Source of the DNA: Bacillota bacterium
GTDB taxonomy: Bacteria > Bacillota > Clostridia > Christensenellales > UBA1242
Reading direction: 5' to 3'
Length of the DNA: 64,000 nucleotides
Assembly: GCA_009784555.1 (NCBI GenBank)
Contig: WRBO01000006.1
Location: 1 to 64,000 of the forward strand
Shown here: positions 35,798-54,371 of the stretch, in pieces
Layout: each line of letters begins with the position of its first letter
Position numbering within the stretch: position 1 is the first letter of the stretch
Position numbers and translations under genes: made by a program
The notes under the pieces: generated by a model
What the model was told of the DNA's origin: nothing
What the model saw: the letters and a program-made list of their open reading frames with translations, nothing else
Databases searched by the model: none

Positions 35798-35807
35798 GGC
35801 TAGGGAT

Positions 35808-35876
35808 ATGAAACAAATCGCATTCATCGCAAAAGGCGCAACCGTTATGATGATGCATTCGGGTTACCGAATGTAG
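35808..35876 (+). CDS. Methionine-rich leader peptide MKQIAFIAKGATVMMMHSGYRM
   Basis: ATG 35808 to TAG 35876, three consecutive Met codons, promoter immediately upstream, attenuator structures downstream. Confidence 0.75.
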   Translation: MKQIAFIAKGATVMMMHSGYRM

Positions 35877-35906
35877 ATTTTTGTATGCGAATCTGAAATA
35901 ACAAAC

Positions 35907-35960
35907 AAATCTGCCTCGGTAACCCGTTAAACGGAAAAACCACAGGGGCAGATTTTTTTT
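35907..35960 (+). terminator. Attenuator terminator of metQNI
   Basis: AAATCTGCC (35907-35915) pairs GGCAGATTT (35947-35955) followed by T tract. Confidence 0.75.
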
Positions 35961-36006
35961 GCGTTGTTTCATAATCCAAATCAAAAATTAAACGGAGAAA
36001 ATAAAA

Positions 36007-36771
36007 ATGAAAAAAACACTAGGCATAATTTTAATCTTGGCGGTTCTAATCTTACCCGTCACATTCCTGACGGGGTGCAACCGCTCCGACCTCTACATCC
36101 TGCGCGTCGGCGCAACCACCTCACCACATGCAATAGTATTGGAACAGGTCCAGGATGAATTAAGGGAAGCGGGCTTCGACCTGCGCATAACCGTCCTGTC
36201 CGACTTCACAACGGGAAACCCCGCACTCGCACGGGGCGACCTCATTGCCAACTATTTCCAACACCGCCCATTCCTCGAAAACTTTAATGCAAATACGAAC
36301 AACAACCTGCAACCCCTCGCTGGAATCCACTTTGAACCCCTCGGCATCTTCCCGGGCCAACGTGCATCAATCGCCGCCCTGCAACCTGGCGACCGCATAA
36401 TCATCCCAAACGATGTAACGAACTATGCACGCGCCCACACTCTTTTGGCCGCCAACGGTATCGATGTTTCCCAATTCCAAATCTATCCTGTACTCGCATC
36501 CAACCTAACAACACTCCGCACGGATGCCGCACTCGCCGTCATCAACGGAAACTGGGCCTTGGGCGCGGGAATTATTGATTTGCGCCTGACCTACGAAACC
36601 CCTGAACTGGGCGAACGCTACACAAACATCATTGCAATCCGCGACGGCTACCAAAACCACGCGGGGCTGAACGCACTTGTCACGGCACTGCAAAGCGACC
36701 GAATCCGAGACTTCATCCTAAACCGTTGGAACGGTGCAATTGTTCCGAACTTCATCGGCGGTGGCTTCTAA
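36007..36771 (+). CDS. metQ: Methionine-type ABC transporter substrate-binding lipoprotein
   Basis: Lipobox 'LTGC'; NlpA/MetQ features 'RVGATTSPHAIVLEQVQDEL', 'ANYFQHRPFLENFN', 'IPNDVTNYARA'. Confidence 0.88.
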   Translation: MKKTLGIILILAVLILPVTFLTGCNRSDLYILRVGATTSPHAIVLEQVQDELREAGFDLRITVLSDFTTGNPALARGDLIANYFQHRPFLENFNANTNNNLQPLAGIHFEPLGIFPGQRASIAALQPGDRIIIPNDVTNYARAHTLLAANGIDVSQFQIYPVLASNLTTLRTDAALAVINGNWALGAGIIDLRLTYETPELGERYTNIIAIRDGYQNHAGLNALVTALQSDRIRDFILNRWNGAIVPNFIGGGF

Positions 36772-50536: not shown

Positions 50537-51880
50537 CTACTTCTTCCCCAACTTCATCTTCTTAACAAACTCATCCAAAATCATGTCCAAATCGGGCTTG
50601 CCAATCTCCTGCAAATCATACCCAATCTTCACACACGGCTTGTTAATCTTCATCAATCGTTGCAAGTCAATCGGCGTGGCAATCGCAACAACATCACAAT
50701 CAACCTTGTTAATCGTCGCCGCCAAATCCTTCATCTGTTGCGCCCCATATCCCATCGCTGGCAAGATATTCCCAATCCCTGGATACGTGTCAAAGGTCTC
50801 CTTCAACTTCCCAACCAAAAACGGACGCGGGTCAACCAACTCGGCCGCCCCAAAACGCTTTGCCGCAACAACACCCGCTCCAATTTTCATCTCACCGTGC
50901 GTCAACGTCGGGCCATCCTCAATAACTAACACCTTCTTGCCCTTAATCAATTCTGGCTTATCAACGGACAGGGTAGACGCCGCATCAATCACAACCGCAT
51001 TCGGATTGACCTTGGCAATGTTATTACGTACCGCTTGAATGTTATCGAAATCGGCACTATCCATCTTGTTAATCACAACGGCATCGGCCACACGCAATGT
51101 AACCTCACCGGGATAATAACTCAATTCATGACCTGGCCTGTGCGGGTCAACAACGGTAACCATCAAATCGGGGGTATAAAACGAAAAGTCATTATTGCCC
51201 CCATCCCAAAGAACAATATCACAACCATCTGGGTCACTCTCGGCGGCACGCAAAATCGCCTCATAATCCACCCCCGCATAAATCACATTCCCGCGCACAA
51301 CATGCGGCTCATACTCCTCCATCTCTTCAATGGTACAATCATGCTTCTTCAAATCCGCAATCGTCGCAAATCGCTGTACCTTCTGCGCCTCCAAATCGCC
51401 ATAAGGCATCGGGTGACGCACGGCAACAACCTTCAACCCCTTCTGCATCAACTTCTCAATAATCGCACGACTGGTCTGACTCTTCCCGCATCCCGTTCTA
51501 ATCGCACCGACCGCAATCACTGGCTTTGTACTTTTAATGGATGTCGCACCATGACCCAACAGCATAAAGTCCGCTCCCGCCGCATTGACCTTCGCACCCA
51601 TTCCCATCACGTATTGATACGTAACGTCACTATACGAAAAGACACATATGTCAACCTTGTACTTCTTGATTAATGTCTCCAACTCCGACTCGGCATAAAT
51701 CGGAATACCATTTGGATACTGGGCTCCCGCCAATGACGCTGGATACTTACGCCCATCAATATCTGGAATCTGCGCGGCGGTAAACGCCACAACCTCAAAC
51801 AACTCATTGTTGCGGTAATACGTATTAAAATTATGAAAATCCCTTCCCGCCGCTCCGATGATAATTACCTTCTTCTTCAT
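50537..51880 (-). CDS. Cyclic 2,3-diphosphoglycerate synthetase-like P-loop protein
   Basis: 'IIIGAAGRDFHNFNTYYRNN', 'VGAIRTGCGKSQTSRAI', 'LWDGGNNDFSFYTPDLMVTVVDPHRPGHE'. Confidence 0.85.
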   Translation of the reverse strand: MKKKVIIIGAAGRDFHNFNTYYRNNELFEVVAFTAAQIPDIDGRKYPASLAGAQYPNGIPIYAESELETLIKKYKVDICVFSYSDVTYQYVMGMGAKVNAAGADFMLLGHGATSIKSTKPVIAVGAIRTGCGKSQTSRAIIEKLMQKGLKVVAVRHPMPYGDLEAQKVQRFATIADLKKHDCTIEEMEEYEPHVVRGNVIYAGVDYEAILRAAESDPDGCDIVLWDGGNNDFSFYTPDLMVTVVDPHRPGHELSYYPGEVTLRVADAVVINKMDSADFDNIQAVRNNIAKVNPNAVVIDAASTLSVDKPELIKGKKVLVIEDGPTLTHGEMKIGAGVVAAKRFGAAELVDPRPFLVGKLKETFDTYPGIGNILPAMGYGAQQMKDLAATINKVDCDVVAIATPIDLQRLMKINKPCVKIGYDLQEIGKPDLDMILDEFVKKMKLGKK

Positions 51881-51908: not shown

Positions 51909-52631
51909 TCAATCCAATATTTTGGACAAAAATTCCTTCAACCTATCACACTGTGGATTATTGAATATCTGGTCTGGCGTTCCTGACTCGGCGATTTTCC
52001 CCTCATCAACATAGATAATCTTGCTCGCAATATTTTTCGCAAACTTCATCTCGTGCGTAACAATCACCATGGTCATCCCCGATTGGGCCAACTCGCGGAT
52101 AACATCCAAAACCTCTTTAACCATTTCGGGGTCTAATGCCGATGTCGGTTCATCAAACAACATTATCTTTGGGTCGGTCATCAAGGCACGGACAATCGCC
52201 ACACGTTGCTTTTGTCCGCCGCTCAAACTGCTTGGACTCGCTTTAACTTTGTCGCCCAACCCAAAGCGACAGAGCAGGGCAATCGCCTTCTCCTCAATCG
52301 CCGCCTTTGGTATTCTGCGGTTGTTCAATCGCTTTGCAATGGTTACGTTCTTCAACACATTCATATTGGGGAACAGGTTGAAATTCTGAAACACAAACCC
52401 AATCTGCTGGCGCTTCTTGTTGATGTTGCCAATACCCAACGCCTCACCATCGAATATTACTTCACCGCTCGTGGGAATTTCCAAATGGTTCATGGCACGC
52501 AACAACGTCGACTTACCCGAACCGCTCGCCCCGATGATTGCTATAACTTCGCCGGCATTAACATCCAGGCTAACGGAATTCAAAACGGTCACTCCGCCAA
52601 ACACTTTTGTCAGATTCTTAATTTGGAACAA
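51909..52631 (-). CDS. Polar amino acid ABC transporter ATPase (TTG start)
   Basis: 'GASGSGKSTLLRAMNHLE', 'LSGGQKQRVAIVRAL', 'MLFDEPTSALDPE'; SD AAAGGAGG before TTG 52631. Confidence 0.93.
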   Translation of the reverse strand: MFQIKNLTKVFGGVTVLNSVSLDVNAGEVIAIIGASGSGKSTLLRAMNHLEIPTSGEVIFDGEALGIGNINKKRQQIGFVFQNFNLFPNMNVLKNVTIAKRLNNRRIPKAAIEEKAIALLCRFGLGDKVKASPSSLSGGQKQRVAIVRALMTDPKIMLFDEPTSALDPEMVKEVLDVIRELAQSGMTMVIVTHEMKFAKNIASKIIYVDEGKIAESGTPDQIFNNPQCDRLKEFLSKILD

Positions 52632-53307
52632 TTTTGAAAACCCTCCTTTCAATAACCTTAATGGCAACCGTCAACAAATAGACAACAGTCAAATAAATAA
52701 ACGCCAACAACATGTACGGAACAATCACATCAAACGTACGTGCGACAATTAATTGCATCCCGCGCGTAATATCAATCACGGTTATAAACCCAACAACCGA
52801 CGTTGCCTTTATCAATGAAATCATCTCATTGCCTAACGCTGGCACCGCATTCTTATATGCTTGCGGTAACACAACCTTACGCATGGTGGTAACGTTTGAT
52901 AATCCCAATGCACGCCCCGCCTCAAACTGTCCCTTGTCAATACCTTGAATTGCACCGCGTAATATCTCTGCTGAATGGGCACCGCTGTTCAAACCGAATA
53001 CGATAACCGCGACCGTCAACGCTGGAATTCCTGCGGGGCCCAAAAATACAAAGAACAATAACAACAGCTGCACAACAATAGGCGTACCGCGCAAAACCAA
53101 AATATAAACCCAAGCCAACGACTTTGCCACTTTCGACACAATACCGTTGTTTGGATTGGTCTTGATTACCGCAATAACCGTCCCCAAAACCAATCCAATG
53201 GCAAACCCGGCAAAGGCAATGATAAAGGTATTCTGCAACGCATTCCACAAAAACTCCGTGTTGTCGACCAACGTAACCCACGCACGGGACCAAAAATTCT
53301 CCCACAT
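52618..53307 (-). CDS. Polar amino acid ABC transporter permease
   Basis: 'VLRGTPIVVQLLLLFFVF', 'SGAHSAEILRGAIQGIDKGQFEAGRALGLS'. Confidence 0.93.
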   Translation of the reverse strand: MWENFWSRAWVTLVDNTEFLWNALQNTFIIAFAGFAIGLVLGTVIAVIKTNPNNGIVSKVAKSLAWVYILVLRGTPIVVQLLLLFFVFLGPAGIPALTVAVIVFGLNSGAHSAEILRGAIQGIDKGQFEAGRALGLSNVTTMRKVVLPQAYKNAVPALGNEMISLIKATSVVGFITVIDITRGMQLIVARTFDVIVPYMLLAFIYLTVVYLLTVAIKVIERRVFKIVPN

Positions 53308-53318
53308 ACTTCTAACTC

Positions 53319-54134
53319 CTACAAACTTATCCCGTGATTTGCAAAGATATCTGCTAATTCACCATTCAACATCATCGTCGACAAAACACGATTAACCTGC
53401 CACAACAACTCTGTGTTTCCTTGGCGCACCGCCGCACCATATTGTTCATCGGTCAGGGCAACGTTAACAACCTGCAAATTCGGATTGTTCGCAACCAACC
53501 CATGTGACGCAACTGCACCCTGGATGGAATAATCAATAATGCCATTCTGTATCGCCGTCATCATCGTGATGTTGTCCGTAAAGACCTGTACATTTGATGC
53601 CCCCGTCAATGCAATTGCATGGTCGTATCCCGTTTGACCTGCCACCGCACCAATACGCTGTCCCGCCATAGCCGCACGAATCTGGTCTGCGTTCATCCCG
53701 TCCAAACGATTATTGTTCACATGTGTAATCAACACCTGTCCGCTGTTAAAATATGGAATTGTAAAATCCGCACCCGCACGACGCGCCTCGGTAATTGTCA
53801 TCCCGCTCAACACTATGTCCGATTGACCGGTATGCAGCGACAGCAACACACCTGCAAAGTCCATATTCTGAACAACTAACTCCAGCCCCAATGCATCCGC
53901 AATGGCGGCGGCGATGTCAATGTCGATTCCAACATACTCACCCGCATCGTTTATGCTCTGAAAAGGCGGAAAGTCGGCACTCGTCGCCAAAATCAATTGC
54001 CCCGCATTAACCAATCCCCATGGATTATCATCGTCATCACTGCTACTCCCGCCGCAACCAACCAAAAACAGGGGAGTAACCAACATAATCATCACGGCAC
54101 ACACCCCAAACATAATTTTCTTAAAATTTTTCAT
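53319..54134 (-). CDS. Polar amino acid ABC transporter substrate-binding lipoprotein (family 3)
   Basis: Lipobox 'LVGCG'; 'LILATSADFPPFQSIND', 'GIDIDIAAAIADALG', 'GMTITEARRAGADFTIPYF'. Confidence 0.92.
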   Translation of the reverse strand: MKNFKKIMFGVCAVMIMLVTPLFLVGCGGSSSDDDDNPWGLVNAGQLILATSADFPPFQSINDAGEYVGIDIDIAAAIADALGLELVVQNMDFAGVLLSLHTGQSDIVLSGMTITEARRAGADFTIPYFNSGQVLITHVNNNRLDGMNADQIRAAMAGQRIGAVAGQTGYDHAIALTGASNVQVFTDNITMMTAIQNGIIDYSIQGAVASHGLVANNPNLQVVNVALTDEQYGAAVRQGNTELLWQVNRVLSTMMLNGELADIFANHGISL

Positions 54135-54194
54135 TTTTTAATTCTCCTAAATTTTTATGATAGAGATGAAAACACCACATCGAATTTGATGCAT

Positions 54195-54228
54195 TAAAAA
54201 AGGGGCCAAACGCAATCGCGGCCCCTTT
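54195..54228 (-). terminator. Attenuator terminator upstream of the amino acid transporter operon
   Basis: Minus strand AAAGGGGCC-gcgattgcgttt-GGCCCCTTT followed by TTT. Confidence 0.8.
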
Positions 54229-54273
54229 GATTTGTTCTTAATTAAAATAAAGACAAAGCAAAACTGCTAACGA

Positions 54274-54333
54274 TTACGTTCGCCGCTTGCTTGCCCGCCG
54301 TGCATTCAATTTAATCCCGACTTGTGTTTTCAT
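54274..54333 (-). CDS. Arginine-rich leader peptide MKTQVGIKLNARRASKRRT
   Basis: Minus-strand ATG 54333 to TAA 54274, TTGACA-17-TATATT 9 nt upstream, attenuator downstream. Confidence 0.65.
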   Translation of the reverse strand: MKTQVGIKLNARRASKRRT

Positions 54334-54342
54334 CTCTTCAAT

Positions 54343-54371
54343 AATATATGTGTACAAAAACGGTTTGTCAA
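54343..54371 (-). promoter_or_regulatory. Promoter of the Arg-rich leader / transporter operon
   Basis: Minus strand TTGACA-17 nt-TATATT. Confidence 0.75.

Follow-up and report, generated by a model that had tools for sequence, protein, structure and literature searches.

The 64,000 nt stretch of Bacillota DNA analysed here (the window; contig WRBO01000006.1) carries on its minus strand the genes of an amino-acid ABC transporter, preceded by a short open reading frame with four Arg codons, and the question raised by this locus is whether, and how, that frame controls the genes behind it. The genome containing the window (G000; 1,120,884 bases) belongs to a genus from which five genomes (G000–G004) were used, all of them MAGs and 65–91% complete. 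We read the locus, with a probability of about 85%, as a ribosome-mediated (trp-type) transcription attenuator that would sense charged tRNA-Arg and control an amino-acid ABC importer, most likely an arginine importer. The coordinates of its parts, and of a comparable Met leader, are collected in Table 1.

Table 1. Predicted elements of the Arg leader, the transporter genes behind it and the Met leader of the same window.
Feature	Position	Strand	Evidence
Promoter: TTGACA (54371-54366), 17-nt spacer, TATATT (54348-54343)	54343..54371	minus	base-by-base reading
Clamp 5′ arm AGAGATGAAAACAC, predicted transcript 5′ end and leader AUG	54324..54337	minus	alignment, helix test, fold
Near-leaderless leader ORF MKTQVGIKLNARRASKRRT, then stop	54274..54333	minus	sequence, G004 conservation
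Sensing codons Arg12-Arg13	54300-54295	minus	antitermination window at codons 11-13
1:2 protector hairpin; 5′ arm starts inside Arg codon 13	54251..54296	minus	MFE and centroid fold
Antiterminator strand 2 CGAACGTAATCGT, overlaps final codons and stop	54270..54282	minus	pairing test, folding
Antiterminator strand 3 GCGATTGCGTTTG, within terminator loop	54207..54219	minus	pairing test, folding
Intrinsic terminator AAAGGGGCC/GGCCCCTTT (54228-54199) and T-run to 54195	54195..54228	minus	sequence, scan, fold
Clamp 3′ arm GTGTTTTCATCTCT, between terminator and binding-protein Shine-Dalgarno	54162..54175	minus	alignment, helix test, fold
Shine-Dalgarno AGGAG of binding-protein gene	54144..54148	minus	sequence
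Family-3 solute-binding lipoprotein	53319..54134	minus	PF00497 (SBP_bac_3), E 2.7e-33
ABC permease, HEQRo type	52618..53307	minus	PF00528 (BPD_transp_1); TIGR01726 above cut-off
ABC ATPase, polar amino acid type	51909..52667	minus	PF00005; best NCBIfam GlnQ, below its cut-off
Met leader MKQIAFIAKGATVMMMHSGYRM and stop, antiterminator CGGGTTACCGA/TCGGTAACCCG, terminator	35808..35955	plus	scan, folding, clamp test
metQ-like gene behind Met leader	36007-36771	plus	
Met-leader clamp	35807-35816 with 35964-35973	plus	

The initial annotation had described the promoter, a 9 nt gap, the leader ORF with its four Arg codons and a terminator at 54228–54195, and each of these was confirmed base by base. 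The leader ATG (54333) lies 9 nt after the −10 element, so that the leader is near-leaderless, and the intrinsic terminator sits between the leader ORF and the transporter genes. The Arg codons are CGG CGG (codons 12 and 13) and CGG CGA (codons 17 and 18), and four Arg within seven codons have a probability of about 3e-4 at the genomic Arg frequency. CGG accounts for 12.5% of the Arg codons of G000 and for three of the four in the leader; no tRNA-Arg(CCG) for CGG codons was found in this 88%-complete assembly, from which tRNA-Pro and tRNA-Tyr are also missing. The pairing that had been noted between CGAACGTAATCG (54282–54271) and CGATTGCGTTTG (54218–54207) is present and spans 12 positions, including two G-U pairs. 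The hairpin GCGAACG-TAAT-CGTTAGC (54283–54266) also exists, but is shorter than the fold and forms the apex of the longer predicted 1:2 hairpin. A 14 bp pairing involving the 5′ end (the clamp), absent from the initial annotation, is added here. The Arg locus alone is only suggestive, because the helix between leader and terminator loop gave p = 0.012 on its own and 0.053 with the 5′ arm included (contiguous-helix test); a free duplex search of the leader end against the terminator, which preceded that test, was too noisy (p = 0.37).

The genes behind the leader had been described as encoding a family-3 binding protein together with a permease and an ATPase, and their Pfam matches (PF00497, PF00528 and PF00005) bear this out. 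The true start of the ATPase is probably slightly inside its ORF. By sequence, the binding protein is about equally near to glutamine-binding domains and to other amino-acid-binding proteins; we infer arginine as the substrate from the leader together with the fold family, which make this specificity plausible. ArgR (PF02863) was found in none of the five congeners (65–91% complete), and 8 of 14 control genomes were positive. Behind the transporter, at 50537–51880, is a gene for a 447-aa P-loop protein with a weak CobW match, which by eye looks like a cyclic 2,3-diphosphoglycerate synthetase, and the same type of protein also occurs behind a Val-rich leader (L221) in G001.

Among 61 genomes searched, the binding protein had a single close counterpart (76% identity), in G004, a termite-gut Bacillota MAG (Lab288P1bin142; contig WRAD01000007 in GenBank); Lab288 denotes Labiotermes labralis in a study of termite-gut MAGs (PMC7024585). 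Upstream of it lies TTGACA-17-TATAAT, followed by the leader MKTNKEIMFQANARRARQRRHTL and a stop codon, the peptide of which includes NARRARQRR. The first Arg pair is spanned in both leaders by 14 identical nucleotides, GCACGGCGGGCAAG. Comparative alignment had been suggested as a check on the first reading, and promoter, ORF, Arg cluster and terminator are all kept in this, the sole other genome found with the transporter. The antiterminator differs in sequence and keeps its pairing, the leader end CATACGTTG matching CAACGTATG in the terminator loop, and a hairpin comparable to the 1:2 hairpin of the window forms as well. The elements themselves, the fact that G004 keeps them and the covarying pairings can all be read directly from the two sequences. 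That the Arg leader is known from only two genomes follows from the transporter being present in these two only.

About 25 near-leaderless leader ORFs were found in the five congeners, with codons for His, Asn, Cys, Lys, Met, Tyr, branched-chain amino acids, Gln or Arg. The genome-wide scan for the same design that had been proposed earlier brought many more leaders, with codon runs matching genes. Seven were found by scanning G000, and an eighth (Gln) by a promoter-plus-ATG pattern, which ignores codons and yielded further leaders in G001–G004; read backwards as a control, the pattern had almost no matches in the genus. The codon runs appear for the most part to match the genes behind them: His leaders precede hisS, Asn leaders asnA and a non-discriminating aspS, Cys leaders cysK, Lys leaders dapB, Met leaders metQ, Gln leaders relatives of glutamine synthetase (glnA-like), and a Tyr leader a relative of tyrosine phenol-lyase/tryptophanase. 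Other genes led in this way are cysK/cysM, a cysK-cysE fusion and metQ-like lipoproteins; Cys codons also precede an SDF symporter, and Asn codons an aminotransferase-PEP carboxylase operon. The Met leader at 35.8 kb, to which the architecture of the Arg leader had been likened, is real and is conserved in G002. One sequence, TTCGGGTTACCGA, turns up in more than one reading frame (SGYR, FGLP) and is therefore kept as RNA, and leaders such as MNCTKKNYGLVLIIVTSGYRL and MNCTNWLGFHHHHFTSGTRM may be copies with an exchanged codon run. Conservation in G004 and this genus-wide set together make the Arg attenuator more than chance.

Some members of the set stand apart. One candidate (L169) lies inside a conjugation-type gene and was dropped, and four others (L213, Thr; L203, Phe; L164; L194) are doubtful, having no matching gene, though they are still counted in the statistics. 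The Gln-rich leaders (TLNQQE, EQQQ) before the glutamine synthetase relatives (L250 on contig C28 of G000, L233 in G001 and L173:824 in G002) share a similar hairpin around CCTATGCAC, followed by a terminator; neither antiterminator pairing nor a clamp was found in these three, nor an Rfam match, and they are possibly another kind of switch. An EamA-like transporter lies behind an Asn leader in G002 (L185), and a similar protein is encoded by the third gene of an Asn-led operon in G000 (contig C11, 8417–9298); it may carry Asn or Asp. The leader MNFVVKDLSKGVFMPLPACRMTSYAWFLMV of G001 (L223:1633) has no obvious codon run, and has a 15-bp clamp, a terminator and a gene for a small protein downstream; its predicted antitermination window falls at codons 14–17 (MPLP).

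Of 60 genomes sampled from the family, 50 have T-boxes, and none were found in the sampled congeners. An Rfam search of the window returned tRNAs only, with no T-box (RF00230) match, and when the five congeners were searched directly, only two weak matches came up, of which the one in G003 was rejected as lying inside a coding ORF, and the one in G004 as gone on rescanning. These absences are provisional because the five genomes are 65–91% complete. SAM (RF00162) and lysine (RF00168) riboswitches were not found in G000; the SAM riboswitch is present in G002 and G003, and no lysine riboswitch was found across the sampled family. By HisRS similarity, the nearest genera are g5, g15 and g66, which are also without T-box matches. 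The promoter matches read from these three and from genus g7, a part of the total, were mostly long leaderless genes, and those of g5, g15 and g66 included no comparable leader set; hisS, taken as a comparator for T-boxes, mostly had neither element in the sampled relatives. A genome of g7 (G073) that also has T-boxes carries a His leader led by a Shine-Dalgarno sequence (MKYYQIHHHHSVL and stop; L261) with a terminator before hisS, a possible intermediate state. In every tested genus of family f1, consensus promoters with an ATG 4–13 nt past the −10 element greatly outnumbered the matches of the reversed control pattern, and leaderless mRNAs appear to be common in this family.

The dynamic steps that we infer for the Arg leader are as follows. 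Transcription would start at the leader AUG, or a few bases before it, and a ribosome would translate the leader. When arginine is sufficient, the ribosome would reach the stop codon and mask strand 2, allowing the 3:4 terminator to form. When arginine is short, it would stall at Arg12-Arg13 and mask strand 1, leaving strand 2 free to pair with strand 3 of the terminator loop, and the polymerase would enter the transporter genes. If no ribosome is present, strand 2 would be held by the 1:2 hairpin, again giving termination.

These alternatives were examined by folding leader RNAs with the ribosome footprint masked according to the A-site codon, so that all folds by ribosome position are computed, and by an equilibrium model only. 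In the RNA of the window, antitermination was predicted only with the A site at codons 11–13 (Ala-Arg-Arg), its probability being about 0.99 at codon 12 versus 0.18 at the stop codon; the second Arg pair falls outside this predicted window. The terminator was favoured in free RNA, through the 1:2 hairpin, and also when the ribosome sat on the stop codon. In the model, then, the antiterminator is exclusive with the terminator and is exposed by a stall at the Arg codons. A weaker peak was obtained for G004 at codons 14–16, Arg being codons 14 and 15, and the full-length RNA still favours the terminator, so that kinetics would have to matter there. Elsewhere, peaks fell on or beside the codon runs, as at the first Met, the first His (G001) and a Lys-Glu-Lys run (G004). 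Among 12 leaders with a clear profile, peaks coincided with codon runs beyond circular shifts with a mask of 9 nt (p = 0.0007) or 12 nt (p = 0.002), and significance was lost with a 15 nt mask (p = 0.31). Complementarity between leader end and terminator over 27 leaders gave a Fisher p of 2.6e-13, a combined value that overstates the evidence because homologous leaders are not independent.

The clamp was first seen when both Arg leaders were aligned. Both of its arms differ together in G004 (GATATG/CATATC). In a set of 30 leaders chosen without regard to the clamp, a contiguous helix, in most cases taking in the leader AUG, was found at p < 0.05 in 14 and at p < 0.08 in five more, as judged against shuffled post-terminator segments (Fisher p = 2.9e-17), and cognate pairs outranked swapped pairs (p = 1.5e-7). 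The signal was confined to the 5′ end and the post-terminator segment, and no such complement was found for the promoter stretch from −45 to −17. Measured from the A of the AUG, the helix of the 14 clear cases starts at most 6 nt upstream and at most 5 nt downstream, but its edge is no proof of the transcript start because the free duplex fold often extends further upstream. Six leaders of E. coli gave no evidence of a clamp (Fisher p = 0.61). Read-through RNA folds with the clamp helix closing the leader, and its first bases, including the leader AUG, could pair with the post-terminator segment. We read the clamp as forming only on read-through mRNA, and propose that it would then silence the leader ORF and guard the 5′ end, with the Shine-Dalgarno sequence of the transporter outside the duplex.

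The same complementarity might instead, or in addition, serve a terminated leader RNA acting in trans as a small RNA on the read-through mRNA and repressing translation of the transporter. The location of the complementary segment, just upstream of the Shine-Dalgarno sequence, would suit this, and a trans-acting leader RNA derived from an attenuator and starting at the leader AUG has been described in Sinorhizobium meliloti (PMC7298713). We consider it unlikely, however, as the Shine-Dalgarno sequence itself is not covered, the pairing is cognate for each leader by the swap test, and a single molecule that offers both arms should outcompete a second one. Lower still do we rate the idea that the clamp has no function in RNA and is an inverted repeat in the DNA, the remnant of a cassette that was mobile or duplicated. 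Several leaders are clearly paralogous (MNCT...TSG.R; TTFG.P.V), and cassettes have therefore been duplicated, yet the repeat varies among leaders and stays cognate, its arms change in step between orthologues, and the promoter stretch lacks a complement.

For the attenuator itself, a different sensor could be imagined: the Arg-rich nascent peptide might sense free arginine, or the basic peptide might itself cause the stall, in place of a shortage of charged tRNA-Arg. Arg-rich peptides are kept in both genomes, and arrest peptides that sense small molecules are known, among them the fungal arginine attenuator peptide and E. coli SpeFL, which responds to ornithine. This is nevertheless very improbable: one design serves about a dozen chemically unrelated amino acids, TTCGGGTTACCGA is read in differing frames and so is conserved as RNA, and the footprint geometry places the antitermination window on the codon run. 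Least credible is that neither the ORF nor the hairpins have a role, a chance Arg-rich frame simply lying beside an ordinary terminator, for although the loop pairing alone is weak (p 0.012–0.053) and the whole-leader fold is just 1.5 SD below shuffles, the conservation in G004, the genus-wide leaders with matching genes and the 18 raw matches of a relaxed scan (several of them secondary frames or doubtful leaders) against 0–1 in shuffled intergenic DNA all speak against it.

Beyond attenuation at this locus, a wider proposal, to which we give roughly even odds, is that the genus lost its T-boxes and came to run much of its amino-acid control through near-leaderless attenuators, many of them with a cognate clamp between 5′ end and post-terminator segment that would silence the leader ORF and stabilise the mRNA only after read-through. 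In this Bacillota lineage, much of the amino-acid-specific control appears to lie with leader peptides and not with T-boxes, and the evolutionary exchange between the two is therefore directly testable through sister genera. The codon runs also suggest which amino acids are specific to transporters for which homology is not decisive, and the clamp, if confirmed, adds a step to attenuation, namely the fate of the leader past read-through.

Several known systems resemble parts of this arrangement. Like the attenuators of enterobacteria (trp, his, thr, leu, phe, ilv), the Arg leader has a short ORF containing regulatory codons, helices 1:2, 2:3 and 3:4 that exclude one another, and an intrinsic terminator before the structural genes; unlike them it is near-leaderless, has strand 3 largely in the terminator loop, would sense Arg and control an importer, and carries a 5′ clamp. 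In the same phylum, leader-peptide attenuation is represented by the predicted His leaders of hisS*/hisZ in Bacillus, described as replacing T-boxes (PMC2965389), and by the Leu-rich ilv attenuator of Staphylococcus aureus (PMC5794164). Those are isolated cases, whereas here about a dozen amino acids are involved in a genus with no detected T-box. The leader orf34 of Salmonella orf34-speF senses Arg by ribosome pausing at consecutive Arg codons 12 and 13 (PMC6386406), the same two positions as in the window. It differs in relying on Rho, on decay by RNase G and on an inhibitory structure at the ribosome-binding site of speF, and in preceding a decarboxylase gene with no intrinsic terminator switch (PMC6386406).

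The trpL transcript of Sinorhizobium meliloti starts at the leader AUG (PMC7298713), and mycobacterial uORFs with runs of Cys codons precede Cys genes (PMC4633059, PMC1262725). Both concern other phyla and other amino acids; the mycobacterial cys leaders have no obvious terminator (PMC4633059, PMC1262725), and no mention of a clamp was found for either. In the open-access literature, neither an Arg attenuator of this type nor such a clamp was found reported, and no Lys-, Asn- or Met-codon leaders were found. The nearest parallel to the clamp is the 5′–3′ long-distance interaction of the type I toxin mRNAs hok and aapA (PMC6733600), in which the 5′ part also pairs with a distant downstream segment and leaves the translation start of the full-length RNA inaccessible. 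In the toxin mRNAs this pairing acts against the Shine-Dalgarno sequence, whereas the clamp, the effect of which is predicted, would act against the leader AUG of an attenuator and would find its partner on read-through RNA only. Attenuation as such is known; judged from sequence, what appears to be new is the Arg specificity, the clamp, and the use of the design throughout a genus in which no T-boxes were detected.
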